NCBI RefSeq assembly: GCF_910592395.1
Contig: NC_088317.1
Coordinates: 4,154,001-4,218,000, forward strand
Source: Lineus longissimus
Taxonomy: Eukaryota > Nemertea > Pilidiophora > Heteronemertea > Lineidae
Direction of reading: 5' to 3'
Length of the DNA: 64,000 nt
The translations under genes were made by a program, and so were the position numbers. Position 1 is the stretch's first letter, and every line of letters starts with the position of its first letter. Below, piece by piece: positions 36,850 through 63,428 of the stretch. A model generated the notes under the pieces. That model was not told where the DNA came from and searched no databases. It saw only the letters and a list, made by a program, of their open reading frames with translations.

Positions 36850-37347
36850 ATGCCAAACAATTCGAGCAATGTTTCCGGAAACGAAGTTTGTAAGGTAAGT
36901 TGATATATACTTCGTGTCCAATGCAATTTGCCTGGATTGTCAATGTGGTTGAATGATGATCGGAGTTTCGGGCCTTTAGAGAATCCACCCAATTTGATGT
37001 AAAGTATATGCCTATCATTGTCAAATCAGCAATTCACAAACAGTAAACTACGCGTATTGTTGTCGTGATGTGGCATTGAATCTTAGAATCTTAGGCTGAT
37101 ACAAGAGGGTCGGCCACTCTCTACGAAACCTTACGTTTAGGAGATAAGGATTTGTTAGGGATTCTATATGTGCTCTTTTTAAAATCTTTTCCAGAGAGTT
37201 GCCATAGCCGGGGGAGTCCTTGCTCCGACTGGTATTGGAGCTGCTGTTGGAACACTCGGTGGACCGCCTGGAATAATCCTAGGCTTAATAATTGGAGGCT
37301 GTGTAACTGTAGTTTGGACAACCGTAGCCTATTGTCGAAAGAAGTAA
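36850..37347 (+). CDS. NEV-cluster member 1: small glycine-zipper membrane protein, 65 residues
   Basis: Exons 36850-36894 and 37195-37347, phase-0 intron, donor GTAAGT, acceptor TTTTCCAG. Exon 1 encodes MPNNSSNVSGNEVCK, which carries the cluster signature. Exon 2 encodes a strongly hydrophobic, Gly-rich stretch (AGGVLAPTGIGAAVGTLGG, then GIILGLIIGGCVTVVWTTVA) that could span a membrane once or twice. It ends YCRKK. GxxxG-type spacing of glycines is typical of helices that pack in membranes. A TATA box is 103 bp upstream. No family is recognised. Its Gly-rich hydrophobic nature recalls interferon-induced ISG12-like proteins, but no diagnostic motif is present. Confidence 0.7.
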
Positions 37348-38990
37348 CTGCTGGCCAGAGTTTCGTCTAGCTAGCTGTGGTTGTTCAAGAACAGACTGAT
37401 GCGAATGGATCCCTGTAGTACAATGTTGTTGCAAGAAGAACTAGTGCAGTCACGAAAGTACAATTACAAATTAACATAACAACAGAACAATGTTTTCTAA
37501 ACATGTACATGTAATATATACTGCCAATTCGATTTTGTCTCATAGCTGTCTTGGTGAACTTTGAATGGCAGACAACCAGAGCGTTTGGACTTCGAAAGGG
37601 GACCAATTGTTCGCACCAGCCAGCACAGATTATATCATATATTCTTGTAGTGGGATTTATCTGTACTTGACAAAGGGTGGCATGGTGCCGAGTTTATCGT
37701 AACACCCTCGGTCAGTGTTATCGCAGATTGTTGATTGTCACTGTAGTTTTGTCGATTGCATTTTTTTGGCATCGTACCGTCCAGGATTATGCATTATCAC
37801 TCCCGTGGCCAAAATGGCATGGTTGTGATTATTCCATGACAAGTGATATAGCTTATTCTGCAGCCCGTTTTGCTGAAAACCCCCAAATGATATGTAATAA
37901 ATGTAATAAATGTAATAAATTGACGTAGTAAATAAAATGTTTTGTTATTAGTTTCATATGGCTTTCATCAGCCAATTTGGTGGCATATAAAACCAAATAT
38001 GATACGTTGTATGCATGATAACTGCAGTACGGCATTGTGTATATCTGTCTTCACAACGACAATAAACTATTTTTCCGAGGTCAATGATGGGCCAATGACT
38101 TGCTTTCAAATCAAATGCATTGTGTATAACTGCATTTCTATTTACTCCTGACCCACCATTGAATACGACCGGAGTACATACCCCTTTAAACTATTCACTG
38201 AAGGAAGAGCTTTTATTCCATTATCAAAATTCGTCGAGATGCGACCACCAATCGTTGTTCAGAATCAGCAGCATCAATTTGGCATTCAGGCATACACATT
38301 CAAGATTTTCATGGAGACACTGACTAATATTGTTTACTTGAGAGAGAAAAACCGTGTTGGATGTCACTGCATCATGATGACACCACTGAGATGGTCGCGT
38401 AAGTTGACAAAAGTCGCTGGTTGATGTTATAGTTCTTCTTAACAGTCGGTCGCAGTCCATTGAGTTGCTTCACAAAAGTAACTGTAGTGTTACTTCTACA
38501 GAAAGGATTGACCCAATTTTACGGGTAGTACATTCCACACGAAAGAATTCGCATGCCTATTGAAAGCCAATGATAAGCAAGTCCGAAGTGCAGTGGGTAA
38601 CGTAAAACACTTTTCACAATGAATACTTTCAAGTTTTATCATTAGCCTATTCGGCCTGAGCCAGTGCCTGGTTCCACCAAAGTAATTCGCCCAAACCCAC
38701 CACATCACTACTGATGAAGAGATTGGAGAAATGCGTTAAGTACGACCAGGCGGCGCTGACATCCAGTCTTAAAAACCTCTGCCCCAGTTTCCTACTTGCT
38801 GTTTCTGCGCGCAACACGCCGCCCAAGCAGCTGTAAGATTGAATTGGGACATAGCACTGCACTAGTTACAGTTCAGAGTTAAGTCTAAATTGTCGTGGAC
38901 GTAATATTTTGTCTAAATTTGCGGACATAATATTTAGAGGACCCTGGACTGGATTCCCGACTTCTACTAGAAAATTTGAAAACCAAGAAA
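37348..38990. other. Stretch between cluster genes 1 and 2
   Basis: No supported gene. About 37940-38160 holds CATTGTGTATA and ACTGCATTTCTATT words that return near 51910 and, inverted, near 59235. This is a dispersed repeat associated with this cluster. Confidence 0.4.
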
Positions 38991-40347
38991 ATGCCATACT
39001 ACAACAAGGGCAACAGCGGACCATCCGTTCCGGTTGATGAAGTTAAACGAAGGGTAGGTGCCATTATATTAATTCTATTCCACATTCTGCAAACTAACAA
39101 ACTATATTCAGTCGCCACAGACCCGCAATAATCTCAAATCCACCTCTCTCGCCTGGTACGCCGGCCGAGATCTCGGTTGACAACGAGAGTTATGTCAGAA
39201 GACCAGACAAATCCAGTGAGGCAAATCCATCCCCAGGGTTGCGCAATATTGCTGCCATGACACCCCGGCCGAAGGCATTATGTTATCATGATAATACAGT
39301 GATCTGAACTTGACCTTATTGGATGTCAAAAAGTGGTGAAGAACGTTTCCAAGATTAAAATGTGTCACAAAACTTTCATACTTGCCAATTTTGCCTCAAA
39401 ATCCTGGCTTAAAAGTAAATTCGGCCTTGATTTGCCTTTAAATGAGCTGCCATGGTGGCACAACCCTGAGAGACCCTGCCGCTTTTGACTCACGAAAACA
39501 GCAATCTATACTTGTACATTTATCACGCCAAAAAATATCTTCTCAGCTTATTTTTTATCTACCAGTAAGAACTAGTGCCTGGCAAATGTTGTCCCTATAA
39601 CGTTGGCGTTAACTTATTAAACTTAGCGTTATTTCTTTCAGTTAAGTCCTAAGACTATACATCAAGATATGATAGGGGTCTTTCTTATCTCACAGTATAA
39701 TATTTATTAGTATTCAAACACGGCCAAGTCCCCAGTCCCCTGTGGTCGATCATCACAAGACCAACACCTAGCCCCTGCCTATAGTCCGTCCCCCTTTAAG
39801 TCAAGCGTTAATAGGTTTCACTATCAAGCACAGCGTGTGCTTTTTTCATTCGGAGTGAGTATCCAAACAACCTCTTTAGAAACCTTTGACTTAAAGATGG
39901 GCTCTAGCCAGATGCTTACGAAACGATTCACTTTAACATCACTGAAGGATTTCTCAATAACTTTTGCAGGAAAACGTGCGAAGCGAACTGAAGCACTGGG
40001 TGGCCTTAATAAGGCGCAATCACGAAAATCGTAAGGATACTTCAAGCGGAATCGACAGCTTCAAGCGCAAAGTCCCTGATATCTGGATTGATATGAAAGC
40101 CTTGGCAAGGGGATGCAGCAGCGATGCCGTCGTCCATGAAAATCGGATCAGATTTTCTGACAAGGAGAAGCTCGCGGAGTTTCTCGGTGATGATCTCAAA
40201 CGCCGAGATGGTGAGAAACACGTGGTGATCGTGAACAAAGCCAAACCCTTCACTATTGATTACGACGGAGTCATATTGTTCACTATTGAGCATTATTATG
40301 AATATGACTACGATAGCACAGACGGTCATGCAGCACGATGTAAATAA
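38991..40347 (+). CDS. NEV-cluster member 2: 146-residue protein with a 125-residue second-exon domain
   Basis: Exons 38991-39053 and 39970-40347, phase-0 intron (AGG|GTAGGT, TTTTGCAG). Exon 1 encodes MPYYNKGNSGPSVPVDEVKRR. Exon 2 (378 bases) encodes a charged, mixed-structure domain: an amphipathic helix (VRSELKHWVALIRRNHENR), a strand-rich part (PDIWIDMKALARG, HVVIVNKAKPFTIDYDGVI) and an acidic/Tyr tail (EHYYEYDYDSTDG), ending ARCK. It has no signal peptide or membrane segment, so a cytosolic or nuclear protein is likely. The orphan exon at 43111 has the same length, phase and relative layout and is probably its diverged paralogue. Confidence 0.65.
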
Positions 40348-43110
40348 GTGACACAAAAACACCCACAGATGCCTCTACTATTTCGTAGTACATCAGTACG
40401 GTACTATTCAAGCCTGCACTCGGAATATTGCTATCACTTACAGTCAAACTTGAATCTTCCTTGAGGGAAACTAGTGTATTGCTATCACGTGATCTAACCG
40501 GAACCTTTAAAAAAAGTCAATTAGGCAGGATACGTGTTAGGTCAGATTCAATTACACAAACTCACCGATAGCACAAGAGGAATGTACATTCATTGCTCCC
40601 TGGGGATCATCAATTTGACCCCCAATATAGTCATTCTTTCATTGTGCATGACAATTGGACCAGTGAGCTCTGCCTAATCGCCGGCTCTCGACAAGTAAAT
40701 GTACAATTGAAATGCATTGGTTAGTACATGTATACTGTGTAGCTCATACATGATTCATATTGGATATTCACTTCATGTTACAGATTCTGAAGTCTACAGG
40801 TTTTAGTTTCATTGCTAACTACAGAATAATGTAAGCTTACCTTTCTTAAACTTATGGGTAAACATTTTTGTTCGTTGACATTGCTAGATAATTGGTAAAA
40901 TGAATCTTTGAAATCCAAGACACAAACAAGGATTTCGTTCTGTCATTCCTTTCCTGATTTATTTTACTTTAAGAAGTATATCCTAGAAAAGACTTGAGAT
41001 GTCGCATTCATCAAAACATCACAAAATGTGGAGTGCTATTTATGGGTAAACTACTCTTTTTGTCATTTCGTGTGCATTCTGGTTCCTCAGTGTAGTTTTA
41101 AAGTGAAAAGCAGAGTTGTTGAATAAATTTGCAAATAGTAGAGTATACGAAGAGTTAGCACTTTTTATCACCCCCCCCCCCCTGAACAATTCATCGTGAG
41201 TATAGCCTTCTGAGGAGATGTTTTTGACCCAGATTTAACTGGTCCCCGGCCTTATAAAACGTGGTAGATTCATCAAAATGTTGGAACCAGTAATAAGGTT
41301 GGGATGTCCTAACAAAAGGCGTCATGTATGTCTACTTTGTTTTGACATGGGTTGGCCACAGGATCCTGGACCCGCTGATCGTTTACTGTACAAAGGCGGT
41401 CATTTTATAATCGCCCATCCTCCAAAACGATTTGATTAGAGAAAATCTACAGCTAAGACCTCGCTGCGCAAGGCTGTATTATCACGAACACCTGTCCAGC
41501 AAAGGTACTAACCTAAGATTAACTGTTTGTCATGCCCTGCTTTTGTTAATTGGGTGTTGAGCCAGTCTTGTTGTTCAATAAGTTGCTTTTTCTCAACTTC
41601 GCGGGAGAATTATCTTCATCCCGCGGCGAATAGGCGGGAAAATGACGGAGAAAGTTGAAGGAATAATAGAAGCGCCGGCAATCAATAAACTTAGATTGCT
41701 GATTGTGAATATGTCCTCTGTAATAAATTCGTGGTCATGGTCTGCAGTAAGGTGATGAATATCAAAATCGAGCCATTATTGTGCATTTCAATACATGTTG
41801 ACAGTGAAAGATTAAATCCGGCCGCCTCTATTGATGACTATAGACCGTAGAATATTCCATTGTCGACTTTCATCAACATAGCGGGTCATCTATTAAATAT
41901 CATGAAAAAGTATTTCACATGATAGACTGACGTCAGTCTTTTATTAGGTTTGTATATTATTCTCCTACGATTTTAGTTGTATCACCTCGTTTCTAAGTGA
42001 GATAGGTGCGTAGATGACGCAATCTAAACCTCAGAGAGTCTACTTGGGGACGATGGACCTCGTCCCCCGAATCCGAACTGTACAAACTGAAGTACACACT
42101 ATGCAAGCATTCGAGATGGGCCACTCCGGTTGGTCGAATTGGCGCATTGGAGTCCGAGTTAAGTGTACTTGATTGGCTGACTGTTTATGGATGAAATTAT
42201 AATAAATTATTGTTATTGAAATTAGTCATATGTGGTGACACTGGGGTTTATCGGATTAAAAATAGTTTTTATGTTGAGGGGAAGTCAGATGGGGATTTTT
42301 CTCGAAACATTTCTGGGTAATGATTGATATTGGTCTAAAATTGGAATAAAGACGTCACTCCAGGGTGGAATAAAAGGATCAAATCTCAAAGGAAGTTACC
42401 ATTTACCACTAGAAAACCTGAACGAATAGAGGTGAAATCTAATACCTATAGCGACAGTATGAACCGTGACTATTCTTATGCTGGAGCCTTTGCTGGGAAC
42501 ACAACTGGTGATGAGATAACAGAGCGAGATTTGGTAACTACAGTTTATTTTTTTGAGCGCCATGCAGATGCCATGTGAATAATGCTTGTGTAGCAGTCGC
42601 AAATGTCCCTCTCCCCGGAAAAAGTGTCCGGCCCAATATCATCGACGACGGATCATGGTATGCCCATCTGATTTGATACCTGAGAGATCTTAGTGCACAA
42701 AATAACAGTCCTTGTTCCCCTGACATTCTGTTCTAGAACATTTCAAGCTTTTACACCGGCGATGAACAAGTTAAAAGCAAGGAAAATCGATCACACACAT
42801 TAAGGAATGACCTTACAGTTGGCTCCCAGTCTCATGTAGTATTTTTTAAATCATTTTTTGCGTTAATACGTGTTTTGCCCGATTTCTCACGCAAAAACCA
42901 ATCTGCAATTATGTTGTTCTTACGGCAAATTAGCGATCGAAATCTGTTGCTCAAATTTTTTTACTACTAAATTTATTGTTGATTAAATTCGTTTTGGGAT
43001 AGCAATTTTTCTTCTCAAGCATCCAGGATTAGAAAGGTATGACTTCGAAACGTAATTTTACTTTATGTTTTAGTAATCACGGTTTCATATAACAACATTT
43101 TACATTTCAG
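40348..43110. other. Stretch without a supported gene
   Basis: A/T-rich, with a C10 tract at about 41171 and TATGGGTAAAC words at 40853 and 41041. Near 42751 the bases ACCGGCGATGAACAAGTT + AAAAGCAAGG resemble the end of the member 2 first exon (CCGGTTGATGAAGTTAAACG), but the donor is missing and a stop lies upstream. This may be a decayed first exon. Confidence 0.35.
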
Positions 43111-43488
43111 AAAAAGCGTGTGGTCAGAATCATCGCAGATATGGTAGAAAAGGTGTTTGAAAATATGAGGCAGCACAGCAGCAGTTCATCTAGTTCATTT
43201 CACCTTGATGTAGATTCCGAAGAATTCAGGGTCATTCTGCGTCACGCGAATGAGGCTAGAGCTATCAAGTTCGTCTCCGGACAAATGACGGAGCTGAACT
43301 TTCCGTCAATGAGCTCGTTCTGTACGTTTCTTGATTCTATCGCGAATGGTCGGTGGACCGGTGGAGGCGGTGGCGGATATTCTGGCCCAATGATTGAAAT
43401 AAGCCAATATCACCCGTTCAAGATTTGTCATAATTCTTACCCAGTTAATAGTTCAACAGAGGTAACTTATCATTTTACAAAAGGTTAG
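43111..43488 (+). CDS. Orphan second exon of the NEV cluster, 125 residues
   Basis: After the acceptor TTTACATTTCAG an open frame in phase 0 runs to TAG. Its length, 378 bases, equals that of the second exon of member 2. It begins KKRVVRIIADMVEKVFENM (helical), then a Ser run, then SEEFRVILRHANEARAI, LNFPSMSSFCTFLDSI and a Gly-rich stretch, and ends YHFTKG. No intact first exon with the cluster signature was found between 40348 and 43110. It may therefore be spliced to the phase-0 donor at 39053 or have lost its first exon. An internal ATG at 43120 could also start translation. Confidence 0.5.
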   Translation, partial: KKRVVRIIADMVEKVFENMRQHSSSSSSSFHLDVDSEEFRVILRHANEARAIKFVSGQMTELNFPSMSSFCTFLDSIANGRWTGGGGGGYSGPMIEISQYHPFKICHNSYPVNSSTEVTYHFTKG

Positions 43489-45828
43489 TAAACACTAAGC
43501 CGGAGAACAGAACGTTTGAAATCGGCGGCACTGACGTTTATCATTGACGTCCAAAGAGAGACTGCTTTTTGTCAATTGCTAAAAGAATTTCACGGCATAA
43601 ACTCTATTTAATTCATTTTGATAATGTCAGTTGAGTCTAGGCCTGAACGCCTCCCACCCCCCCCCCCCCGCCATACACAAGTATGGAACGCATTTGATCC
43701 CTAAAATCCTGATTGCATGTGTTATCAACGCTGTGCCTGGTATATTATTGGTAACAGTTAATTTCATTTTGAAAGAACTCAAATATGAGAGTGTTGGGGT
43801 AAAGACAAGAAGCCATACGACTGACCTTATTGAAGTGAAATGATAGTATTTTGTAAACTACAGCATACAACTTCGAATTGAAAGACAGGGGCCAATTGTA
43901 TACCCTAGTTTCACCGATATAAGACCGGTTGACTTGCCACGAAATCGAAACTAGGGCCAAGCCAGAACACGAAGTTATGACCACCGGGAAACTTGGTGTA
44001 ATCAACCTACTGTCTATCCAAATTCAACACGCTGAATAGCATCGGAAGACCATGTGTATACTACTTAGCTTGACTGAATTGAATATTCAGCACCGGTTTT
44101 AGATCGATGAATCTAGAGTATGTTAGGAATACATTTATAGGGAGAATATGTACACTTGAGTATGTTCAAGTTCGAAAAACGATGTCTTAGAATTGATTCC
44201 ACTTTACATCGAATTGCAATGATTTTGTGGTTTTCTGCTGTGTATTCATTTTCTGCTGTGTATTCATTTCATGATGTGTATATTCTATTTTTCTTAAATG
44301 TTAGTTGTGTGTGTCATGTAAATGTATGTATGTCATTAGAATATCAGCAATTAAAATACACTTCTGGTGTTTATTCGACACATTTAATTTGTTCCTTCAC
44401 TGTTTCAATATTCAAACTATGCCAACGAGGTGCTGTCGTTCATTGTTTACTGAGAACGACGACATTTCACCTCTGAGAATAATTGCAAACAACGATTTGA
44501 CGTTGCGTAGGCCTACTTGTAATGTCATGTCGCATTTAGAAAGATGTTCCTCCAACGTTTTAGATAACTTGGCCCTCCTCTACACGTGCCCCCCCCCCCC
44601 CCCCACACACACACATCCCATCGAATTACTCTGAAGCTGATGGACCGAAATACGAGAACCTAGAGATGGAAAACAGCAGGATTCTTATACCTGACATGCT
44701 GAAGAACATATAAGCTTATAGCATAAATCAATATCAGTCTAGGAAGGTGTACACGTATGTTGAAAATAGGGAATCCGAAACCACCATGTGGACGCCCATC
44801 CCATTATTCGACTTGGTTATCAGAAGGTCGAATAATGAGATAGACGTTCACGTTGAAGTTTCGAGGTGTTGCGAAAACTCTCTTATCGATCGCGCACAAG
44901 AAGTCCATGCATAGTGTGCAGTGGAGCATCATGACGGGAGAAACGAGGAGTCACTTCTTGGCATTTACTAACAAAGCGGCATATGTAACAGTAAACAGTG
45001 TCTCCATTTTTCTGTGTTTCCATCAATGTTATATGGGCCACTGGAAGACAGATCAACAGATTTCTCTTTGCGCCCAGCAGTATCAATAAATGTTGTGCTG
45101 AAAACACTGATTTAATGGGGACTATTCTGGCAAATGATTTACACACAAAAATACGAGCTGTGTGGTTTTTTCATGTCGTAGGTCACATAAAGGTTGAATT
45201 ATATTCTGAATTTCTTTTCAAAAAAAAAACGTGTTGGGCAGTGTTTAATAAAAAGATAATTAGACGAGTAAATAAGCTAATGGAAGAATTCTAGCAATGA
45301 AAGGACATTTCTTGAAATTTGGTGAAAGATCATGGCAGGTGAGAAACACAAGCCTGAAGTTTGCGCAACTTCGCCTATCGATTTCTGTGGTTTTCTATCA
45401 CTGGTATTCCCCGTACGGAAATATAGCATCACAATATCGACCGTCGTGAACGAAAACAGCCTTTTCCTTGCACACAGGTTCATATTTATAGGTCGATTGC
45501 TTGAACCAAGCGGCTGGTGCAGTGTGTACAACATTTTGCTCAGTTATCATGTCAAGTTAGGCCTGAACACAAACACAACAAGTAGTCCTAGCAAACCAAA
45601 GTCCAACCAAAGCCTAGTGCGTTTGGCTTTTGGCCATTTTTGGAGTTGTAAGTGGTAAATTGACGCCAGAACCGCTACAGAAACCGCAACCAGCTGGCCA
45701 TTTAATTTCACTACCACATGATGATGACATAGTGTCTTTACTAGTACACTACGTGCTGGGACCCGATTGGCTAGAATATATTCTAATTTTGCTGCCCAAT
45801 AAAACCGAAATCCTCTGTCTGTTGCAAC

Positions 45829-45836
45829 ATAAAAGT
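45829..45836 (+). promoter_or_regulatory. TATA-like element of member 3a
   Basis: ATAAAAGT lies about 100 bases before the ATG at 45929, the same spacing as in other cluster genes. CCCAAT lies 35 bases further up. The identical element precedes the unit B copy. Confidence 0.45.
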
Positions 45837-45928
45837 GGCTTAATTCTTCCCTAGAAGATATCGAATTTTCCCAAGAAGAGACTTTATATTCGCGTTGAAA
45901 TTCTATTTAGTTTGATTAATTTTAAACC

Positions 45929-46409
45929 ATGTCCGGCAATACACAGCAAAACAGAAGCAGTAACACTACTGGGAACAACATTCCTAGACGGGATCGAGAG
46001 CAGGTATTTTGATGTTATCGAAATCTACCATCATTTGAAAGCAGATTTTGACCATTTCCGTCCAGTGTCTCCGTCGTACAGTCCTCCATCAAAGGGAACG
46101 CGGCAGCAGACGATAGCTTCCTTGAAATCTCTTTGTAATGTTTACTTGCAGAACTTATTTGAAGTACTTCTGAATGTTTTTAAACCTGATTGTTTTCTTC
46201 ATTTGTAATTTCAGACTTTCAGCAGCCCGCAGGCCCAAGCCAGGCATTACTACTGGGTTCGTCATAATCAAAACCCCAACACTTCTGGAAGTGGCCAGAG
46301 GTCTACTGGCGGCGGAGGAGGCCCGATAAGCTATCGTGGACAAGGATACAATGGCAACACTGGAGGAGGTCAGAGCAGTGCTAATGAATCTTCGTGTGAA
46401 ATATCGTGA
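45929..46409 (+). CDS. NEV-cluster member 3a: 89-residue Gly/Asn/Gln-rich protein with CaaX box CEIS
   Basis: Exons 45929-46003 and 46215-46409, phase-0 intron (CAG|GTATTT, TAATTTCAG). Exon 1 encodes MSGNTQQNRSSNTTGNNIPR followed by RDREQ, a diverged form of the cluster signature. Exon 2 encodes FSSPQAQARHYYWVRHNQNP, then a low-complexity Gly/Ser/Asn/Gln stretch with RSTGGGGG and SYRGQGYNGNTGGG, and ends SSCEIS. The last four residues form a CaaX box whose final Ser favours farnesyltransferase. From known rules one would expect a lipid-anchored, mostly disordered cytosolic protein. Confidence 0.7.
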
Positions 46410-47175
46410 GAAATTGGAATCTCATCTCATCGTGGTTGGATAGTGTCTAGTATATACATGTAATATACATATTCATACATTTGCCTAAAAGCAGAATTTG
46501 AGAGACTTCCGGTCGCACTGTCCTATCAAAAGTGTTGACTTCCGAAATGCAGCATGTAACTTTAGATTAGTCAATTACAGTGTGTGACTTTTTGAGATAC
46601 TTACCCGTTAAATAGTTTTAGGAGTGTGGCGGATAGTCAAAAATTAATGGTCAAGTGTACAGGATATATATCGACAGTGACATCAACTTTAGTTCTTTAT
46701 GTAAACGGGTAACTTAACAACGATAACGATGAAGAGAACATTTGGGAATTACAATTTATTCACGCTGTGCTTTGGACAGGGGGACATTACTGAAACTTTC
46801 ACGGGGATCCCAGGATTTATTCATGAAGAAGGACGGCTTAGTGTTACAGCTACCTGCTTGAGAGACGAATGTGTAGGGTCACTGGTCAGATTGTGGAGAA
46901 CATTATTCAACAGTAGGTTAGATAAATAGTTAGTTGGTTATGATAAAAATACTTCCTGTTAATTCACTGCTTTACCAATTGCCTAAAAGTGACGCTTTTA
47001 CTTCAGTCCTGAGCCCTTTCCCTTCCCCCAAGAAGTACCCTTTCGTCATATGTCAAACTTGATTACAAGATGACAACCGAATTCCTGAGCTCAGATAAGC
47101 CTGTTACATTTATTTTGACCAGGCGACATAATGTTTTTGTTACGAATCCTTGCAAACAATCTCTTTTACAATCTC

Positions 47176-50107
47176 TTCTACTGTGTATTCATTTTCTGCT
47201 GTGTATTCATTTCATGATGTGTATATTCTATTTTTCTTAAATGTTAGTTGTGTGTGTCATGTAAATGTATGTATGTCATTAGAATATCAGCAATTAAAAT
47301 ACACTTCTGGTGTTTATTCGACACATTTAATTTGTTCCTTCACTGTTTCAATATTCAAACTATGCCAACGAGGTGCTGTCGTTCATTGTTTACTGAGAAC
47401 GACGACATTTCACCTCTGAGAATAATTGCAAACAACGATTTGACGTTGCGTAGGCCTACTTATAATGTAATGTCGCATTTAGAAAGATGTTCCTCCAACG
47501 TTTTAGATAACTTAGCCCTCCTCTACACGTGCCCCCCCCCCCCCCACACACACACATCCCATCGAATTACTCTGAAGCTGATGGACCGAAATACGAGAAC
47601 CAAGAGATGGAAAACAGCAGGATTCTTATACCTGACATGCTGAAGAACATATAAGCTTATAGCATAAATCAATATCAGTCTAGGAAGGTGTACTCGTATG
47701 TTGAAAATAGGGAATCCGAAACCACCATGTGGACGCCCATCCCATTATTCGACTTGGTTATCAGAAGGTCGAATAATGAGATAGACGTTCACGTTGAAGT
47801 TTCGAGGTGTTGCGAAAACTCTCTTATCGATCGCGCACAAGAAGTCCATGCATAGTGTGCAGTGGAGCATCATGACGGGAGAAACGAGGAGTCACTTCTT
47901 GGCATTTACTAACAAAGCGGCATATGTAACAGTAAACAGTGTCTCCATTTTTCTGTGTTTCCATCAATGTTATATGGGCCACTGGAAGACAGATCAACAG
48001 ATTTCTCTTTGCGCCCAGCAGTATCAATAAATGTTGTGCTGAAAACACTGATTTTATGGGGACTATTCTGGCAAATGATTTACACACAAAAATACGAGCT
48101 GTGTGGTTTTTTCATGTCGTAGGTCACATAAAGGTTGAATTATATTCTGAATTTCTTTTCAATAACATGTTGGGCAGTGTTTAATAAAAAGATAATTAGA
48201 CGAGTAAATAAGCTAATGGAAGAATTCTAGCAATGAAAGGACATTTCTTGAAATTTGGTGAAAGATCATGGCAGGTGAGAAACACAAGCCTGAAGTTTGC
48301 GCAACTTCGCCTATCGATTTCTGTGGTTTTCTATCACTGGTATTCCCCGTACGGAAATATAGCATCACAATATCGACCGTCGTGAACGAAAACAGCCTTT
48401 TCCTTGCACACAGGTTCATATTTATAGGTCGATTGCTTGAACCAAGCGGCTGGTGCAGTGTGTACAACATTTTGCTCAGTTATCATGTCAAGTAAGGCCT
48501 GAACACAAACACAACAAGTAGTGCTAGACTATTTGTTCGCGCCAACCAAAGCCTAGGGCGTTTGGCTTTTGGCCATTTTTGGAGTTGTAAGTGGTGAATT
48601 GACGCCAGAACCGCTACAGAAACCGCAACCAGCTGGCCATTTAATTTCACTACCACATGATGATGACATAGTGTCTTTACTAGTACACTACGTGCTGGGA
48701 CCCGATTGGCTAGAATATATTCTAATTTTGCTGCCCAATAAAACCGAAATCCTCTGTCTGTTGCAACATAAAAGTGGCTTAATTCTTCCCTAGAAGATAT
48801 CGAATTTTCCCAAGAAGAGACTTTATATTCGCGTTGAAATTCTATTTAGTTTGATTAATTTTAAACCATGTCCGGCTATACACAACAAAACAGAAGCAGT
48901 AACACTACTGGGAACAACATTCCTAGACGGGATCGAGAGCAGGTATTTTGATGTTATCGAAATCTACCATCATTTGAAAGCAGATTTTGACCATTTCCGT
49001 CCAGTGTCTCCGTCGTACAGTCCTCCATCAAAGGGAACGCGGCAGCAGACGATAGCTTCCTTGAAATCTCTTTGTAATGTTTACTTGCAGAACTTATTTG
49101 AAGTACTTCTGAATGTTTTTAAACCTGATTGTTTTCTTCATTTGTAATTTCAGACTTTCAGCAGCCCGCAGGCCCAAGCCAGGCATTACTACTGGGTTCG
49201 TCATAATCAAAACCCCAACACTTCTGGAAGTGGCCAGAGGTCTACTGGCGGCGGAGGAGGCCCGATAAGCTATCGTGGACAAGGATACAATGGCAACACT
49301 GGAGGAGGTCAGAGCAGTGCTAATGACTCTTCGTGTGAAATATTGTGAGAAATTGGAATCTCATCTCATCGTGGTTGGATAGTGTCTAGTATATACATGT
49401 AATATACATATTCATACATTTGCCTAAAAGCAGAATTTGAGAGACTTCCGGTCGCACTGTCCTATCAAAAGTGTTGACTTCCGAAATGCAGCATGTAACT
49501 TTAGATTAGTCAATTACAGTGTGTGACTTTTTGAGATACTTACCCGTTAAATAGTTTTAGGAGTGTGGCGGATAGTCAAAAATTAATGGTCAAGTGTACA
49601 GGATATATATCGACAGTGACATCAACTTTAGTTCTTTATGTAAACGGGTAACCTAACAACGATAACGATGAAGAGAACATTTGGGAATTACAATTTATTC
49701 ACGCTGTGCTTTGGACAGGGGGACATTACTGAAACTTTCACGGGGATCCCAGGATTTATTCATGAAGAAGGACGGCTTAGTGTTACAGCTACCTGCTTGA
49801 GAGACGAATGTGTAGGGTCACTGGTCAGATTGTGGAGAACATTATTCAACAGTAGGTTAGATAAATAGTTAGTTGGTTATGATAAAAATACTTCCTGTTA
49901 ATTCACTGCTTTACCAATTGCCTAAAAGTGACGCTTTTACTTCAGTCCTGAGCCCTTTCCCTTCCCCCAAGAAGTACCCTTTCGTCATATGTCAAACTTG
50001 ATTACAAGATGACAACCGAATTCCTGAGCTCAGATTAAGCATGTTACATTTATATAGACCAGGCGACATAATGTTTTTGTTACGAATCCTTGCAAACAAT
50101 CTCTTTA
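47176..50107. repeat. 2.94-kb tandem duplication, unit B
   Basis: Direct copy of unit A. The junction lies in the run CAATCTCTTTTACAATCTCT near 47156-47175. After 50107 the two flanks diverge. Confidence 0.95.
48868..49348 (+). CDS. NEV-cluster member 3b: 89-residue paralogue with CaaX box CEIL
   Basis: Exons 48868-48942 and 49154-49348, same structure as member 3a in unit A. The proteins differ at only three places: Asn4 is Tyr, a Glu four residues before the CaaX Cys is Asp, and the final Ser is Leu (TCG to TTG). The C-terminus is therefore CEIL, and a final Leu normally directs geranylgeranyltransferase I instead of farnesyltransferase. Both copies are open and keep all splice signals, so both are probably expressed. 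Confidence 0.7.
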
Positions 50108-50785
50108 CAAGGTTTAGGTAGATATATCATTTAATGCCATAGCTTTTAATATGTAACATGTACATTTTTCACCTTAAATAAAACCTTGAAAAGGCAAAGT
50201 AGTCGTCGTCATTTTCACCTTTTCACCTTTCATTCACCTTTTGGGCAGGGACGGAACGACGTCATTATGCGAGTCCGCCATGACATTTCTGAGTCCAGCA
50301 AAATTCCATATTGGACGACCTTAAACATCCACTATTTGCTATATTATGCAACCAAATGTCTTGGCAAAGAAATCAATCCAAAGGAAAATAATGAAACAAT
50401 TTGTTTTTAATGAAATATACAAAATGTAAACAGCATTGAAATTTATGATACAAAATTCCATATCGGACTACCTTAAACATCCACTAAGGGATAATGAAAC
50501 AATTTAAATACATAAAAAATGTAAACAGTATTGACATAATACATTTTGCAGTTGTAAAGATCCAAGATCATTTGTAAACTTCATTTTGATTGGATTAAAA
50601 CCTTTTAGGATCCGTTACGACATTTTTTTGGATCCGTTATTGCTTTTTTGGATCCGATACGATGTGATGACTTGAAATCACATGATGTGAATCGAGTTAC
50701 GCTATTGGCCAAGAACATTTGGTAGCATAATATCAATTAATGAAGTTCTGGTCCCGCGCATGGAGGACGGGTTGACACTGGAGAC

Positions 50786-50848: not shown

Positions 50849-52335
50849 AAACTTTCAACACGTGCTACAGTTATGAAATTTCACTGAATTGTGTTTTTGG
50901 ACACACTGTAAAGGCTGCGAAAGCAATGGCTTATATCGCCTACAATGCATTTGTTTCTCATTATAATATGAATTTACAGTACGTTCTCATACGTTGACAG
51001 CTGTCATAAGACAAATCTCAATCCCTAAGTTTGATATACATGTGCAGTAAATGCAGTAAGGTCAGAATGAAGTGTAGAGTTTTTATATGACGAGGTATAT
51101 AGAACAATCCTACCTGTACGCAACATGCTAATTAGCCACGTGCTCACGAGTTCACTTAGGATTCTCCATTGCCTCAAGGTTCTAGGTTGATGTATCTGGA
51201 GGTGCTTTTATGGGACACCCTGCATGTATTGTTTGCGAAACCCCACACTCAGATGAAAAGGATGACACTCAACGTTTCAATGCAATCAGTTGAAGAAAGG
51301 TCTGTATCGGATAAAATGCACATTTTTTTCTCATTTTGAGAGGGAAATTTGACTTTACAGTACGTTTATATTTTTGGTCAGCTGTCACAAAATCAAAAAG
51401 AACTAAACAGATCAGGATTAGCACGCGCACGGATCGATAATCATGCAGTTTCGCCAAATAAAGAGAGACTGTGGGATGAGGCGTTAAGGCCGAAGTGCCT
51501 GGATCCCAAGATCTTACAAGAACTGTTTACAGACCGAGCAAAAAAACCGTAGTCCATGGATCCCAATATCTTACATGAACTGTTTACGATTGTGTGCGAT
51601 TTCCTGATGACCTCTGAACCAGGTATCGGCCACGGTCAGGGCTATCGACGAGTTTGTGGGTTATGCAGAAATAAATTTGGAGCAGCAGACATGACTGGTG
51701 TGGTCGAAACCGCTTCATCTAGCTACGACTGACGAAGATCATTTCCTGATTGTCAAAAGGCCTAAAAATTTAAAATCTCTACCTGAATTTAAAATGTACC
51801 AATTGCGTAAATACGTACAAGATATAAAGTTCAGCAATACCGAAATTGTGTTGACAGATATACATATACTATACATACCAAGTTTCAGCAAATTCGTATA
51901 CATGATATCTTCACTATGGCATTGTGTATAACTGCATTTCTATTTTCCTGTACCACCAGTTATTGCGAATGGCGTAGGCCTATAACAATAATAACGGACC
52001 CTGGTTGAAATTCGGCTTGAAATAATGTCAATACATGTACTTTCATTTTTGATCGATGGCTTTGAAGTGAGTACACACTAAACACAGGACAAATGCAGAA
52101 ATGAGCGTGTCTGGTCTTGTTGAATTAACTTTGACTGTTTAACATGACCTCAACGAGAGGAGGGGGGGGGGGGTGATATCGCAAATAGGACTTTGATTGG
52201 TCAGATGGCCGTCCTCGAAACTAGGAGTGACAGTCCTCGCAGTAATTCATTGAAATGACAATGATGACATTTTTTTTTATCTCTACGTCTCGTAATCTGA
52301 TTGGCTGAGACAAAAATCATTATTTCTAACAGCCA
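50849..52335. other. Stretch without a supported gene
   Basis: Contains two TTTACAGTACGTT words (about 50969 and 51353), each followed within 30 bases by CAGCTGTCA, a repeat-like block near 51780-51960 and a G11 tract at about 52162. No gene is visible. Confidence 0.4.
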
Positions 52336-52342
52336 TATAAAG
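52336..52342 (+). promoter_or_regulatory. TATA box of member 4
   Basis: TATAAAG lies 141 bases before the ATG at 52477, in sequence otherwise free of TATA motifs. Confidence 0.5.
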
Positions 52343-52476
52343 ATGAACCCAAACTGCAAAATTTAACCTTTTGGCAAAGGGAGAATAGCCGCGACCTTGT
52401 TGGATCACTGACTGTAGAGTCATTCGTGGAGTGATTCTTGATATTTCTCAGAGACTAAAACGAATAATTGCCGAAA

Positions 52477-52929
52477 ATGTCAACAAACCAACCTGAGAAC
52501 AAGAGTAGTAATGTCCCTGCAAACGAAGTGTTCAGACGACAAGCAGATCAGGTAGGAAGCTGAATACATTATTTCCCAACTGTCAATGCCAACGCTCAAG
52601 ATAATTCTCCGCCGTTCTGGGCCAAATGAAAACCCCTTATTGCATCTAAATGGATATTCTAATTCAAAAGTGTTCTTAGAGCGAGGTCCTCGATTTCAGT
52701 CGAAAATACACGCGCAATCAAATGTTTTCACCTGCCGAAAAATTATGATGACCCCTTTGATAAAGAATGACAAAAAAGCATCAGCACCATTTGTATTTTT
52801 CAGACCGATGGTCAGAACCCGAACAAAACCAGCAGTAGCACTCACCAAGGGGGCGGTATGTCGAGCACGGGAGTCGGCCAACAGAACAGCTGTGGTAGCC
52901 AAGGGAACAGCAGTTACCCCAAACCGTAG
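52477..52929 (+). CDS. NEV-cluster member 4: 66-residue Ser/Gly/Asn/Gln-rich protein
   Basis: Exons 52477-52551 and 52804-52929, phase-0 intron (CAG|GTAGGA, TATTTTTCAG). Exon 1 encodes MSTNQPENKSSNVPANEVFR followed by RQADQ, the clearest form of the cluster signature. Exon 2 encodes TDGQNPNKTSSSTHQGGG, then STGVGQQNSCGSQGNSSYPK and a final Pro. The protein is disordered and low in complexity, with no membrane segment and no C-terminal Cys. Exon 2 resembles member 3 in composition, though not in detail. Confidence 0.65.
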
Positions 52930-53731
52930 CCTATTGGTAACACTGATGATAAATGGATGCTGCTGGATGTGATTTTCCTCGACAGAAGTTGAGACAAAAA
53001 TGAAATTTTCTCTAATTTTCATACGTAAAAAGATGTGCTGAATACATCCAGATGGATTTAACATAACACGGACAGGATCGGATGATAGCCAATTTGATTT
53101 GAAATTCTCTTTCTAATTGTATTGAGTTTTATCACGGACCTAAATATACTGCGGATACATGTGAAGTAAGTGCGTGACTTATTATTAACTTTTAAGACGT
53201 CAAAGTAATCAACTTTTCTGAAAATTTATTCACAGAGGACGTTTTAGACTTGACGTAAATAACTTTTGTTTTTCTGTTTGTTTTATGAATGGGAGCGCTG
53301 TCATTTCAAACGGAAATCAATTGGAAGAGTCCACAGATTGGTCCTTTCTTCACTAATGCAGCGGCCAGAGAAAACCATACACCCCCTGGTCATTTCCAAT
53401 TGCGCAAATACGTTCTGAATATGTATACAAAAAACTTATATTCCAAGTTTCAACAAAGTTCCATGCATGAGAACTGCACTACAAATACGGTGTAACGTTT
53501 TTGCTTATTCCCCCATATTTCAGTGTTTCCATACAATAGACAGCTACTATTCAATAGGAGAAAACTGAGAAAAACTTATCAATCTGTCTTTCAGCGTTTC
53601 CAAATATTATATAATCTGCGACGTTCAATACCTTAAATGAGGATCAAAATGCAACACCACAATTATTCCCTACTACAAGTGCTTGTTGTTAAATTAATGG
53701 GAAATTTCAGAAAGAGGATTGATTTTTTTTG

Positions 53732-54075
53732 CATTACTCACAAAGCAATAATACGTTATGCGATATATACCACGTGATGCGATCTATGCCATGTACTTGG
53801 CTGAGAGAATATTCATTATTTTGCAACCAAATATATAGTTGAGCGCTTGCCATTTTTCGCAAGACTTGTTCAAGAAGTTAAGAAGATAAAAATCATTTGT
53901 GGATATCAGAATATTTTGTTTAAAAATGCCGCCCAAAGAGGATAAAAAAATGCCGCCCAAAGAGGATGAAACAAACGGACCTACAAATGTACCCGGCGAT
54001 GAGGTTCCTAAACGGGTAAGGAAAACCTTTAATAACTATTACAGCAACAATATTGATCAATAAGTTTAATTGATC
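53732..54075. repeat. Promoter/exon-1 duplication, copy A
   Basis: Matches 54605-54940 from a CATTA.TCACAAA.CAATA start, through a TACGTTATG...ACCACGT.ATGCGATCTAT block, TGGCTGAGAGAATA.TCATT and the TATA-like ATATATAG, to the first exon and the start of its intron (TTTAATAACTATTACAG). It includes everything needed for transcription and the first coding exon. Confidence 0.8.
53831..53838 (+). promoter_or_regulatory. TATA box of member 5
   Basis: ATATATAG lies 95 bases before the ATG at 53926. The matching ATATAG at 54701 precedes the ATG at 54799 by 98 bases. Confidence 0.5.
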
Positions 54076-54669
54076 AATTAGTTTAAAAGTCTAATCCTCG
54101 TTCTCTTATACTTCATTAAATGTAGGGTATAAAACCCCATGAAGGATTCCGTTATAACTTTCTGTTAGCAGTCCATTTCAAACAAACATAACAGTGCTTA
54201 GGCAGCCAGTCACACATGTGAATTCCTATCCCTGCCCCACATGAAATGGCTATACATGCTTTGTCAAATTTCCATCGCCAAATTTACCTTATTATTCATT
54301 TACATGTATTAAAAAATTCTTCTGAGAGTTTGAGTTTGTGATCTCCTTCTTGAAGATATGGCCATGCAAAAAAATAAAAGGCCTAGGGTCGCTAGATGAT
54401 AAAATGTGTTTTCCTTATTTGTATTTTAGTCCAAACCTGAGACCCCAACCGAAAAGCGTTCTTCTCCGCCGACCCGGCAGAAGGGCGGGGGAAATAATAT
54501 CAGTAGTCAAAATCGGGATGAGATATTTTTTTGGTCATGGCATCTCTGCATCGAGACCCAAATTGTTGTTGTACGTTATACATCACGATATAAAAAGAAT
54601 TTCACATTAATCACAAAACAATACTACGTTATGTGGTATATACCACGTAATGCGATCTATATTACGTAA
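53926..54669 (+). CDS. NEV-cluster member 5: about 109 residues, 3' end uncertain
   Basis: Exons 53926-54015 and 54430-54669, phase-0 intron (CGG|GTAAGG, TGTATTTTAG). Exon 1 has a direct repeat MPPKEDKK then MPPKEDE, followed by TNGPTNVPGDEVPKR, the cluster signature. Exon 2 starts SKPETPTEKRSSPPTRQKGG (basic, Pro/Ser-rich). It then runs through an unrelated-looking stretch and stops at TAA 54667 inside the duplicated promoter block of the next gene. The original C-terminus was probably lost when that block was inserted, and the last 20-25 residues are likely accidental. Confidence 0.55.
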
Positions 54670-54940
54670 TTGGCTGAGAGAATACTCATTTCGCAACCGA
54701 ATATAGTTGAGGCCCTTACCATTTTTTGCCAGGCCTTTTAGCGAAGACAAAGAACATTAAAAAAAATTTTTTGTGGATATTAGAATATTTGTTTAAAAAT
54801 GCTGCCTAAGGGACAAAACAAAAGTTCGAATGTACCTGCTAATGAAGTTGAAAAATGGGCTAGGAAGACTTTTAATAACTATTACAGACAGATTCCCATA
54901 CCAATTTCAGCAACATTACTGAACAATAAGTTTAATTGTC
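54605..54940. repeat. Promoter/exon-1 duplication, copy B
   Basis: Diverged copy of 53732-54075. It contains the near-palindrome TTATGTGGTATATACCACGT + AA at 54628-54649, TTACGTAATTGG at 54662 and the first exon of member 6. Confidence 0.8.
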
Positions 54941-55297
54941 ATCACAGCAGAGCATTCATTATCTAACTTGACTTTAATTCCGCGGGGTATGTTTTTTCTC
55001 TAAATCATTATCAATACAAATTTTGGACTCCATCCGCCGAGTGATATTAGGTGAAAATACTTAGTAGGCCCTGTGCTCACCTGTAAACTATTGCAAGTCA
55101 CCGAAATTATGAAACATGGACAAGAGTATGCAGTCGTCTTTTTGCATGCTATACTCGAAGCGATTTAAAAAAAATTATTTCCAAATATTCATACCAGTAT
55201 GAAAACAATAACACCATTTTGTACATTTCAGTCCAACAGCAGTGGTAACGAGAAAGGTGTCTGGGAAAAAGTTAGGGATTTGTTTACAGGTAAATAA
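54799..55297 (+). CDS. NEV-cluster member 6: 41-residue protein, or first two exons of a longer transcript
   Basis: Exons 54799-54858 and 55232-55297. Exon 1 encodes MLPKGQNKSSNVPANEVEKW. Its donor is GCTAGG, where the related exon at 57559 has GTAAGG, so splicing depends on a rare GC donor and may be impaired. Exon 2 encodes SNSSGNEKGVWEKVRDLFTG + K and stops. Alternatively, exon 2 ends at 55289 with a consensus donor ACAG|GTAAAT in phase 1. That would join in frame to the exon at 57504-57559. Confidence 0.45.
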
Positions 55298-55880
55298 CTG
55301 CAGAAACCGTGGCGACCGTGGAGCGGGCAGATAGGCATCATTATTTCTGACTTAAAGGACTTCATCGAGATTGATGTCACTCGTGGAGGACAAATAGAAA
55401 TTCGCTGCTGGGAGAGGAAGTAATTCTAACGTTCTGGTGATGGTGGATGCTATCATGTTTTCCTGGGACAAATGACAACAAAAGTAGCAGGGGGGGGGTG
55501 ATTTTTTTTGAAATGGTATAACATTTACACAAAATGAAACCGGCTACGGAAATGCTATTGAACGAATTCTGCTTCAACTTTTCAACATGAACCTATAATG
55601 AAACGGATGGGATTACATTGGATGACATTGTGGGTTAAAAGTCTTCATTCACCACTCTCTCAGCATCGTTTAAGTAAGAGCAACTGATCTGGTAGTTGTT
55701 TTTGCACAAACAGTAAAATTAGTAAAAACAGTAGTGAAACTAAACCCCAATTTCTTGTTGTAATTTTTAAAAAGCAGTAAAAAATAACCATCAAAATGGT
55801 TTAGAATCACAATTTCGATAGTTAAACAAAAAAAGTACATGTACAATCGGTGCAATAGGAATTACACAATAGTAAAATAT

Positions 55881-56320
55881 GCGGTTATATTATCCATGCA
55901 AATTTGTTGAAACTTGGAATTTTCAGTTTTTGTATATCTGTCTACACAACAGGACGATTGAAAAAATATTTTGTACGAATTTTGAAGATTGGATATTTTT
56001 CAAATTCAATCAAAAATTTCAAATTTTAATGAACGGCTAAGACTTTTATCATTCGAAGGTTCTTTCCCTCAGAAATGTTATTCTCACCAACATTGCTGAA
56101 ACTTAAAGTCATTCATTTTTCTCTGTAGTAGCTTAACATTCATTAAACAGGTCATTGCACAAAATGTCTTTTTTGTCTCTTTATTGGTTTTGTCACTTCA
56201 TAATGTCGCTTGTTTTGACATAGCCGGCGTTCTGGTAAGTACAACATTTTCGACATTTTGTTCTGCAGGGGTTCTGCCTGCTACATGTATGTCTGAGAAA
56301 TACATATTATAGATTTTATC
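55881..56320. repeat. Dispersed repeat of about 440 bp, copy 1
   Basis: Nearly identical to 59272-59707. It starts GCGGTTATATTATCCATGCA and ends GAGAAATACATA...AGATTTTATC. It lies about 600 bp after member 6, and the second copy lies about 730 bp after member 7, so it probably spread with the genes. No coding capacity. Confidence 0.9.
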
Positions 56321-56345
56321 TTATCTTGTGACCTCACCCTTCTAG

Positions 56346-57448
56346 GTATGAGAGAAGACCTAGGTGTGGTCTCCCAACTAGATATAGAAGTTTAAAGTGA
56401 TACTAAACTCGATTCGAAACTCAAGTGTGTAATCTATTTTGGATCTGATAGTGGGTAAGATAGTTGAACTCGGATGCTTCCCTGCAGTGATTTATTATGC
56501 AAATTAGTCACTGAAAAAATCACATCCTGCATGCACAACTTCAACATGTCACCTATCATCTCTGAATAGAATAGAATAAGTTTTATTGCTCAACAAAATT
56601 TCATTGCGTAGAGCACAAAACTACCTATATAAAATAGAAATACGAATATACATGCGAAGGTTTTTTAACATCAACAAAGAATACGAATTTGCTTACAATA
56701 TGATTAGAGTAGTTGGAGAGACTTTGACAAAAATTTAGTTAGTTTTATTAATGTATTCTTTGGCGAGTTCAAAAGTTTTACATATTTAAATAAATCGGGA
56801 TATCTGTGAAAGTCGGCTGGAATGTAATTTACTCGAATGTTTGAAAAGAAGGGGCATACGAGGGCGAGGTGAAATTCATCTCCAACTACTCCGAGGTTAC
56901 ATTTATTACATGTACGTTCTAGTCGGGGGGGGGGAGGGGTATTATTATACCGGGCTAATTCTATAGGGAGTTTATGGTTGGTACATCTAAATTTACAGAG
57001 TAATATACGTTGGGCTTGAGATAGACAAAGCAAATAATTCTCAAACCCCATGCAAACTTGATTTCTCTGTAGATCAAACATTTTGGAGAGTTTATCAGAG
57101 TATTGCGCCATTCTTGGAGATACTGGTCCTGCAGTCGTCTTCTGACAATTTCACCGAGATAATTAACGTTGAGGAACATCTGTGTCAGCCAGATGTCCCC
57201 GAGCCCACAAAGTTCCAAAATATTTTTGACAAACGCGACCCATTTGATATTTTGACCGTTTTGGTGTCTATGGTATGCAATTTTATACATTTTTCCGGCT
57301 ATAGTTTGTTCCTGTAGAAAATGTCAGTTCTCTTCACCAAGCGCTAGCGGTTACAATGCGTTGTCCGAAAATGATTTTTTGTCATTTAATGATTACCTAA
57401 TAGAGCTCATAATCTCATGAACAAAGCGAAACATTTACACTTGGCAGA
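56346..57448 (+). repeat. 350-bp repeat, copy 1, split by a LINE insertion
   Basis: Bases 56346-56566 and 57317-57448 together match the uninterrupted copy at 63429-63777, which starts GTATGAGAGAAGACCTAGGT and ends ACACTTGGCAGA. The interruption is the LINE fragment at 56567-57316. Confidence 0.9.
56567..57316 (-). mobile_element. 5'-truncated non-LTR retrotransposon (LINE) C-terminal fragment
   Basis: On the minus strand it encodes the C-terminal region of a LINE ORF2. One frame has EWRNTLINSPKCLIYREIKF. The next, after a frameshift near 57040, has GFENYLLCLSQAQRILLCKF and LPIELARYNN, then a zinc-knuckle-like CNKCNLGVVGDEFHLALVC. Its 3' end is at the left: an AATAAA motif and a short ATTCT-type tail. 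The intact copy of the target (63429-63777) fixes the limits, and GAA flanks both sides as a possible 3-bp target duplication. Confidence 0.85.
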
Positions 57449-57503
57449 GTGACATTGCAATGAAACGAGGCTAGACAAATATAGATATATTTTTTCGGTT
57501 CAG

Positions 57504-57559
57504 ATGATAAGGCACAAAACAAAAGTTCGAATGTATCTGCTAATGAAGTTGAAAAATGG
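57504..57559 (+). pseudogene. Extra copy of the NEV first exon, decayed or used as an internal exon
   Basis: It is over 85 percent identical to the exon at 54799 (NKSSNVSANEVEKW in the shared frame) and keeps a donor TGG|GTAAGG, but the initiating ATG is out of frame. A good acceptor (TTTTTTCGGTTCAG) has arisen directly before it. With a phase-1 partner such as the donor at 55289 it would be in frame (DDKAQNKSSNV...). Read alone it is a pseudogene copy; read as an internal exon it could feed the phase-0 acceptor at 58448. Confidence 0.5.
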
Positions 57560-58003
57560 GTAAGGACGACTTTGAATAACTATTACAGACAGATTCCCAT
57601 ACCAATTTCAGCAATTTCACAATTTCGATAGTTAAACAAAAAGGTACAGTCGGTGCAATAGGAATTACCACAATAGTAAAATATTTTTTTTGATAGTTAT
57701 TTACACTAATTAATTTCAAGAATGTGCATTTGCTTGACATTTGGACTACAACCTGCTGTTCGAATCATTCAAATGAAACGCCCACCACCACAATGTAGAG
57801 TGTGCGCAACTGTTCATCATGGTGCAGGTGTTACCATGGCTTCGGTTAAAATGACCAATGGTGCCGCAACAACTCGAGATAGGTTGTCTTGGAGAGCTTG
57901 ACAACGCCATTGATCACGACGATCTGACTGCTGAAACTTGGATTCATATTATCTCGTTGAGATAGAACACAGTCCCTCATCGGTCAATTTGAATAATTGA
58001 AAA

Positions 58004-58543
58004 ATGCCTCGCAAAGGAGAGAATAAAAGCACGGAAGTTACTGGGAATGAGGTGGAACGTAGAACTGAGCAGTCGGTAGGTAGTTGTTGTAGCATGATAT
58101 AGAAAGCAGCTTATACCACCGTGTTGACTGGGTGTACATTGACGTACATAAAACGACATGTTTCCAATCTGTTATCAGCTGACATGCTTTCTAACAACCG
58201 GGCCTCTTCAGGTTTTTTATAACCTTACACAAGGTTGGTTGGTAAATTCATGTTTTGAATGTCGCCTGCATCCACTTCAACAATGTGGTTGTGGGTGGAC
58301 CAATTTATCATGCCCACATCCACAGGAAAGAATTCTGTCCAAAGGTGTATAGTCATAATAACCATTTGGTCAACCAATCCTTCTTTTCTGTTATAAAACA
58401 ACAAGACGCGACTTGAGGCTATTGTGTGCCAATTACGATATTTTCAGCTTAATGGGCCTCCTCCTCCAAGGCCTCACCAGGAAGGTGCAATAAGACTCAG
58501 CGATACTCCAACGAGGCACAGTGGAGGGTGTGAGTGCTGCTGA
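58004..58543 (+). CDS. NEV-cluster member 7: 55-residue Pro-rich protein ending CECC
   Basis: Exons 58004-58075 and 58448-58543, phase-0 intron (TCG|GTAGGT, ATATTTTCAG). Exon 1 encodes MPRKGENKSTEVTGNEVERR followed by TEQS, with the full cluster signature. Exon 2 encodes LNGPPPPRPHQEGAIRLSDT, then TRHSGGCECC and a stop. Four prolines could bind SH3 or WW domains. The terminal Cys cluster could be prenylated or palmitoylated, which would parallel the CaaX boxes of members 3a and 3b. No TATA box is seen at the usual distance. Confidence 0.65.
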
Positions 58544-63362: not shown

Positions 63363-63428
63363 ACACCAACCAACTCAGACTCAGAAACCACAAACGCCCA
63401 ACCCTTCCTGCTACCTTAATACTTCTGG

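Follow-up and report, generated by a model that had tools for sequence, protein, structure and literature searches.

A local cluster of predicted two-exon genes with a conserved N-terminal peptide and dissimilar second exons in Lineus longissimus

Two-exon families with a common first part

In the sea-urchin SpTransformer (185/333) genes, the first exon encodes a hydrophobic signal peptide, the leader of the protein. These genes are small, clustered and composed of two exons, and in this layout they resemble the subject of the present report, a cluster of nine predicted two-exon genes (g1–g9) found in Lineus longissimus within a stretch of 64,000 nucleotides, hereafter the window (C10:4154001-4218000 in a 391-Mb assembly of 30 contigs, which was also used for the genome-wide searches). 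A preliminary description of the locus had likened it to the 185/333 family. The likeness holds for the gene layout and fails for the signal peptide and for a homologous second exon. The diversity of the sea-urchin genes is reported to sit in repeats within a common second exon, whereas the second exons of the cluster are mostly not recognisably homologous to one another. Two papers also report segmental duplications and repeats for the sea-urchin family (PMC5491942, PMC5103432). Moreover, all nine first exons of the cluster, read from the sequence without a prediction program, are polar and carry no signal peptide, in agreement with what had been stated before. The cluster is not a 185/333 family.

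A second point of comparison comes from the effector-associated adaptors (EAD, Death-like, TRADD-N), which one survey describes as small elements combined with a variety of effectors and expanded in particular animal lineages (PMC8195603). One small common element with diverse partners is also what the cluster presents. Those adaptors are folded, whereas the element considered here is a peptide of some 14 residues that looks disordered and has no known relative. A conserved head with a diversified tail is already known as a principle; new in this case is that the head would be an intracellular peptide instead of a signal peptide. Among the papers listed in a literature search, none was found to describe such a family.

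The first-exon peptide and its constraint

The nine predicted genes encode 41–150 residues each, contain a single intron of 211–916 bases and form a 21.7-kb cluster on the plus strand (Table 1). The sequences support a local family that has diverged strongly, keeps a conserved peptide at the N-terminus and lacks a signal peptide; for genes predicted from DNA, it looks genuine and new. The first exons end in phase 0 in nine of nine genes, as already described, and all nine junctions have an AG acceptor. GT donors are present in eight of them, the exception being g8 with GC in a poor context.

The element common to these genes is a 14-residue motif, approximately N-x-S-S-N-V-P-G-N/D-E-V-x-R-R, of which ten copies lie on the plus strand over a span of 21.2 kb. 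When a 14-position position-specific model was run over both strands of the window and 100 kb on either side (264 kb scanned), the ten copies scored 29.8–40.7, the best other position scored 12.2, and no further copy of the motif was found. All eight first-exon starts listed previously carry the motif with scores far above this background. The additional first exon listed at 57504 does contain a motif copy, but it is a relic of the g8 locus with no in-frame ATG. The second exon at 43111, formerly regarded as an orphan, has a first exon of its own and forms with it the gene g3, bringing the number of two-exon genes to nine. A leave-one-out test was run on the eight independent motifs, setting aside the relic as well as g5, which duplicates g4; seven outscored all 527,908 non-family positions, and g3 was beaten by four. 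By its motif, g3 is the weakest member of the family; it still has an ATG start, a phase-0 GT donor and a 125-codon frame after it.

Pairwise comparison of the first exons, with g5 left out, gave a shuffle p of at most 0.03 in 23 of 28 pairs (exactly 0.030 for g3–g9). The five pairs that failed, at p 0.13–0.33, were g1–g2, g2–g3, g2–g4, g3–g6 and g3–g8, and g2 and g3 are the outliers among the first exons. The expectation that the first exons are more alike than shuffled sequences is thus borne out for the whole set and not for every single pair. Nine copies, with the relic among them and g5 omitted, gave 36 pairs, over which the 13-codon core had a proportion of silent differences (pS) of 0.76, which is saturated, and a proportion of replacement differences (pN) of 0.39. 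The peptide NKSSNVPANEV is identical in g6 and g8 although their pS is 0.77. Since silent sites are saturated and replacement sites are not, the peptide itself appears constrained. The copies of exon 1 would be either old or fast-evolving at silent sites, with the peptide retained.

Known short motifs did not account for the peptide. In BH3-only proteins, hydrophobic residues of a helix occupy fixed positions on either side of [GA]DE, and a pattern [GAV][ND]E[VI] is present in seven of the nine genes, with GNNI at this place in g4 and g5. A BH3-only identity was rejected, the residue before the pattern being Pro, Ser or Thr in nine of nine and the position four before the Gly not being leucine. 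Motifs of the TRAF, SIAH, LC3-interacting region (LIR), Keap1 and RHIM types were compared by eye, and none matches the consensus.

Table 1. Exons of the nine predicted genes and the relic copy, in window coordinates.
Feature	Coordinates	Strand	Content	Remarks
g1 exon 1	36850..36894	+	MPNNSSNVSGNEVCK	motif score 31.8, donor AAG|gtaagt
g1 exon 2	37195..37347	+	glycine-rich double-hydrophobic hairpin, GGPPG turn, C-terminus YCRKK	
g2 exon 1	38991..39053	+	MPYYNKGNSGPSVPVDEVKRR	
g2 exon 2	39970..40347	+	125-residue domain	no known relatives
g3 exon 1	42459..42533	+	MNRDYSYAGAFAGNTTGDEITERDL	donor gtaact; weakest motif; overlooked in the preliminary description
g3 exon 2	43111..43488	+	125-residue domain	formerly listed as orphan exon
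g4 exon 1	45929..46003	+	MSGNTQQNRSSNTTGNNIPRRDREQ	
g4 exon 2	46215..46409	+	Gly/Asn/Gln-rich tail	CaaX box CEIS
g5 exon 1	48868..48942	+	duplicate of that of g4	
g5 exon 2	49154..49348	+	like that of g4	CaaX box CEIL
g6 exon 1	52477..52551	+	MSTNQPENKSSNVPANEVFRRQADQ	
g6 exon 2	52804..52929	+	Gly/Ser/Asn/Gln-rich tail	without CaaX
g7 exon 1	53926..54015	+	MPPKEDKKMPPKEDE	start repeated internally
g7 exon 2	54430..54669	+	Pro/Lys-rich	3' end doubtful
g8 exon 1	54799..54858	+	MLPKGQNKSSNVPANEVEKW	GC donor TGG|gctagg, possibly disabled
g8 exon 2	55232..55297	+	21 residues, possible amphipathic helix GVWEKVRDLF	
relic	57508..57614	+	g8 exon 1 and intron start	lacks an in-frame ATG and exon 2
g9 exon 1	58004..58075	+	MPRKGENKSTEVTGNEVERRTEQS	
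g9 exon 2	58448..58543	+	Pro-rich tail, C-terminus GGCECC	

Second exons, upstream regions and duplications

The second exons had been described as completely different, and most of them are indeed not recognisably homologous; five of the 28 pairs nevertheless exceed z 1.5 (g7–g9 4.3, g3–g4 3.3, g1–g6 3.2, g4–g6 2.0 and g6–g7 1.6). These weak similarities come from short stretches rich in Gly, Ser or Pro, and none would survive correction for 28 tests. The second exons of g4, g5, g6, g7 and g9 are low-complexity tails, rich either in Gly/Ser/Asn/Gln or in Pro.

Outside the cluster, a pyrimidine-rich acceptor is seldom followed by an open frame of at least 125 codons (30 of 3,631 acceptors, real genes included), and g2 and g3 have one such frame each. 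In BLASTP, the full g2 and g3 proteins gave 18.1 bits (E 0.048) over non-corresponding parts, and their second exons compared with each other gave 10.4 bits. No accepted Pfam match, no match to TRADD-N (PF09034) and no match in viral contigs was obtained for either second exon. Their AlphaFold models were too poor for use (predicted local distance difference test, pLDDT, of 40–42), and a Foldseek search with the poor g2 model, the only one searched, returned nothing significant (best fold match E 0.72). A PDB sequence search gave none for g2; the g3 match to THR6 (E 0.0029), presumably a designed protein, was disregarded. Matches below the Pfam cut-off were likewise disregarded. There were three of them for g3 (best E 0.061); g1 matched SidM_N at E 0.034, and a shortened g7 matched FXR_C3 at E 0.0024 with 18.9 bits, the cut-off being 27. 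Rfam and tRNA scans of the window found none.

The second exon of g1 has a counterpart in kind. Human C19orf12 is predicted, in one report, to have two glycine-zipper helices (PMC4470416), and another places Nazo, the Drosophila homologue, in an NF-kB-mediated antiviral response (PMC10883546). In g1, two hydrophobic stretches flank GGPPG, resembling a two-helix, glycine-zipper-like hairpin. g1 differs in having no C-terminal soluble part, as it ends a few residues past the second hydrophobic stretch, and in falling under the family cut-off of PF20721 (E 0.012, 15.8 bits against 30, profile positions 49–83). Nine shuffles of g1 gave no match to C19orf12, but one of them hit an unrelated family at E 0.032, so the C19orf12 match alone proves little. 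The genome has its own C19orf12 gene (C11:16740759-16741354), with two matched exons dividing within the glycine-zipper hairpin; g1 is not significantly similar to that gene (best tblastn E 0.28). Overall, g1 appears to be like C19orf12 in kind and is at most a candidate member of the family.

A CaaX box with a C-terminal Cys, an aliphatic a2 and a suitable X is found in g4 (CEIS) and g5 (CEIL). There is none in g2, g3, g6, g7 and g8, and g9 ends in CECC, of which the fit to CaaX is ambiguous. Ser at the X position favours farnesylation. Yeast geranylgeranyltransferase I (GGTase-I), according to one study, prefers Cxa[L/F/I/M/V] (PMC11304957). The segment GVWEKVRDLF of g8 has a hydrophobic moment of 0.63 (shuffle p 0.05).

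A promoter conserved throughout the family, as had been proposed, was not recovered. Out of 28 upstream pairs (eight genes, g5 left out), only g7–g8 shows clear similarity (z 33), and the next pairs are at most weak (g6–g7 z 3.2, g4–g6 2.4, g6–g8 2.4). In the nine 400-base upstream regions, strict NF-kB sites and interferon-stimulated response elements (ISRE) were absent, and a STAT-like site was present in g6 only. Loose NF-kB-like sites occurred in six of the nine (8 sites against about 7.6 expected by chance). These results are neither for nor against immune regulation.

Local duplication is evident at several places. g4 and g5 are one gene inside a 2.9-kb tandem duplication on the plus strand (44233-47171 against 47176-50110, 98.6% identical). 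Across 2,925 aligned columns, the two copies show 24 mismatches. Four fall in coding sequence, and three of these change a residue, including the CEIS/CEIL difference. Two copies about 1% apart differ at the residue deciding between lipid anchors. The g8 promoter is also duplicated (53732-53936 against 54605-54809, 79%), g7 and g8 being one clear DNA-level copy of promoter plus exon 1, with similarity fading about 60 bases into the intron. The exon-2 frame of g7 enters the duplicated g8 promoter copy, and its end is therefore doubtful; together with g8, on account of the GC donor, it makes two doubtful genes among the nine. The copy at 57504 joins two segments of the g8 locus, first 54807-54913 (94%) from within the gene and then 55807-55880 (88%) from downstream of it. 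Since exon 1 is here joined directly to sequence from beyond g8, the second exon is gone, and the relic shows loss of exon 2, not capture.

Other repeats lie in and around the cluster. At 63422-63777, the segments 56339-56566 and 57317-57448 recur side by side (99% and 93%), so that 56567-57316 looks like a 750-base insertion with an empty site 6–7 kb away. A minus-strand frame in the insertion ends in a Cys/His pattern, which we take to resemble that of a non-long-terminal-repeat (non-LTR) retroelement, and has no Pfam match. A 450-base repeat (55880-56320 against 59261-59707, 94% identical) has diverged partial matches at 51765-51985, 53424-53482 and 38009-38190 and is a dispersed element scattered across the cluster. 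Several short direct and inverted repeats are present at 30134-34375, where three frames were tried and gave no Pfam match.

In genome-wide protein searches, the second exons of g1, g2 and g3 matched only themselves, with one or two candidates passed on and distant copies liable to be missed. The DNA of the g8 promoter and first exon matched, besides itself, only g7 and the relic. The exon-1 peptide of g6 likewise found only itself, in a search that is insensitive because one candidate was passed on and g8 was missed despite 11 shared consecutive residues. Given this insensitivity, a second cluster may exist elsewhere in the genome.

Readings of the cluster

We tentatively favour a reading of the cluster as a tandem family of small proteins, intracellular and specific to its lineage, in which a constrained exon-1 docking peptide would be combined with a second exon that places it. 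Some 14 residues long and set in an N-terminus that is otherwise polar, the peptide would dock one common cytosolic partner, and exon 2 would decide where the docking motif is displayed, or the mode of assembly. In g1, exon 2 would act as a glycine-zipper membrane hairpin with both ends cytosolic, and g4 (CEIS) and g5 (CEIL) would have prenylated low-complexity tails. The cysteine-cluster tail of g9 would be a further placing device, g8 would possibly contribute an amphipathic helix, and the second exons of g2 and g3 would be small folded domains. As the hairpin and the prenylated tails both leave the N-terminus in the cytosol, g1, g4 and g5 (possibly also g8 and g9) would present the peptide on the cytosolic face of membranes. 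The cluster would have grown through local duplication, with the motif changing far more slowly than exon 2. On unlike proteins, a constrained, polar, unstructured-looking N-terminal peptide would be explained most simply as a means of docking one partner. Expression, docking and membrane attachment are what we infer from these features, as is any role in defence, which is plausible and is suggested by the turnover of exon 2 and by analogy with Nazo.

Several points weigh against this reading. The docking partner is hypothetical, and the genes are predictions from DNA. No recognisable membrane signal is present in the sequences of g2, g3 and g6, which weighs against a purely membrane-tether function. 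The family match of g1 is weak (E 0.012 beside an unrelated match at E 0.034), and the amphipathicity of g8 is borderline. Because the core used for pS and pN was selected for its conservation, pN tends to come out too low, and the 36 pairs depend on one another. Among 5.8 billion proteins, no homologue at E ≤10 was found with full g2 (9 candidates) or with an alignment of the motif headed by full g6 (26 candidates). The database covers animals, including a LIPT2 identical to that of the window, and the g2 and g6 searches missed even themselves in it; possibly, it includes few spliced models of this animal.

The window itself is animal DNA, containing an F-box/SPRY frame and a lipoyl-ligase frame (both by Pfam), the relatives of the latter being named LIPT2. 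The former, at 1339-2004, is probably FBXO45, as we assume. LIPT2 lies at 12341-13204 on the minus strand and is 81% identical to a protein on a 7.5-kb metagenome contig (P0002), as compared with 46–60% to the other 118 relatives among the 120 of 7,845 matches listed. In a tree built from 41 of the 120 listed matches, the LIPT2 of the window groups with this metagenome protein only, and support for the next fork up is weak. Given this 81% relative, metagenome data may conceal a relative of this animal.

It is possible, though not probable, that the cluster arose by ordinary tandem duplication in which exon 1 alone counts, for instance by supplying a binding peptide, while the tails are near-neutral spacer and some copies are decaying. 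The low complexity of the g4–g7 and g9 tails, the weakness of the tail similarities, and the presence of one relic and two doubtful genes all fit such an origin. However, the 125-codon frames of g2 and g3 and the g1 hairpin look non-neutral, and the CaaX box was retained in both g4 and g5, though their duplication is recent.

The preliminary description had instead proposed that promoter and exon 1 form a duplicated module repeatedly capturing new effector exons, which would yield an intracellular immune repertoire. We consider this unlikely. In its favour, g7 and g8 have promoter, exon 1 and intron start in common at the DNA level but not exon 2, and the g1 hairpin, the g2 and g3 domains and the Gly-rich tails have no common origin beyond weak low-complexity similarity. 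However, the genome-wide searches, insensitive for proteins, yielded no donor copy of the g1, g2 or g3 second exons and no g8 promoter/exon-1 DNA beyond the cluster. Moreover, the upstream regions are unrelated save g7–g8 and have no immune-type motif in common, and the copy at 57504 stands without exon 2 through loss. Compared with this putative exon exchange, ordinary duplication with fast divergence would fit about as well; it would explain the low-complexity tails at least as well, while g1 and g2/g3 would be harder to explain so. Equally doubtful to us is a scheme in which the second exon was repeatedly replaced under a selected, unstructured 14-residue docking peptide, so that the same partner would be brought to different membranes (by hairpin, farnesyl or geranylgeranyl) or assemblies. 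Under that scheme, the CEIS/CEIL difference between the recently duplicated g4 and g5 would be a lipid-anchor switch caught in progress. That the loci are not genes but repeat relics, with splice junctions read in by eye, is quite improbable: no annotated or predicted relatives were found and one copy is clearly a relic, but the protein-level constraint despite saturated synonymous sites, the leave-one-out motif scores, the consistent phase-0 junctions and the confinement of all copies found to the cluster, unlike a dispersed repeat, argue against it.

Short two-exon genes of such kind are easily overlooked by annotation. If transcribed, those of the cluster would form a natural series, with selection fixing one short peptide and everything downstream changing, and a comparison of the paralogues could thereby isolate the function of the peptide.

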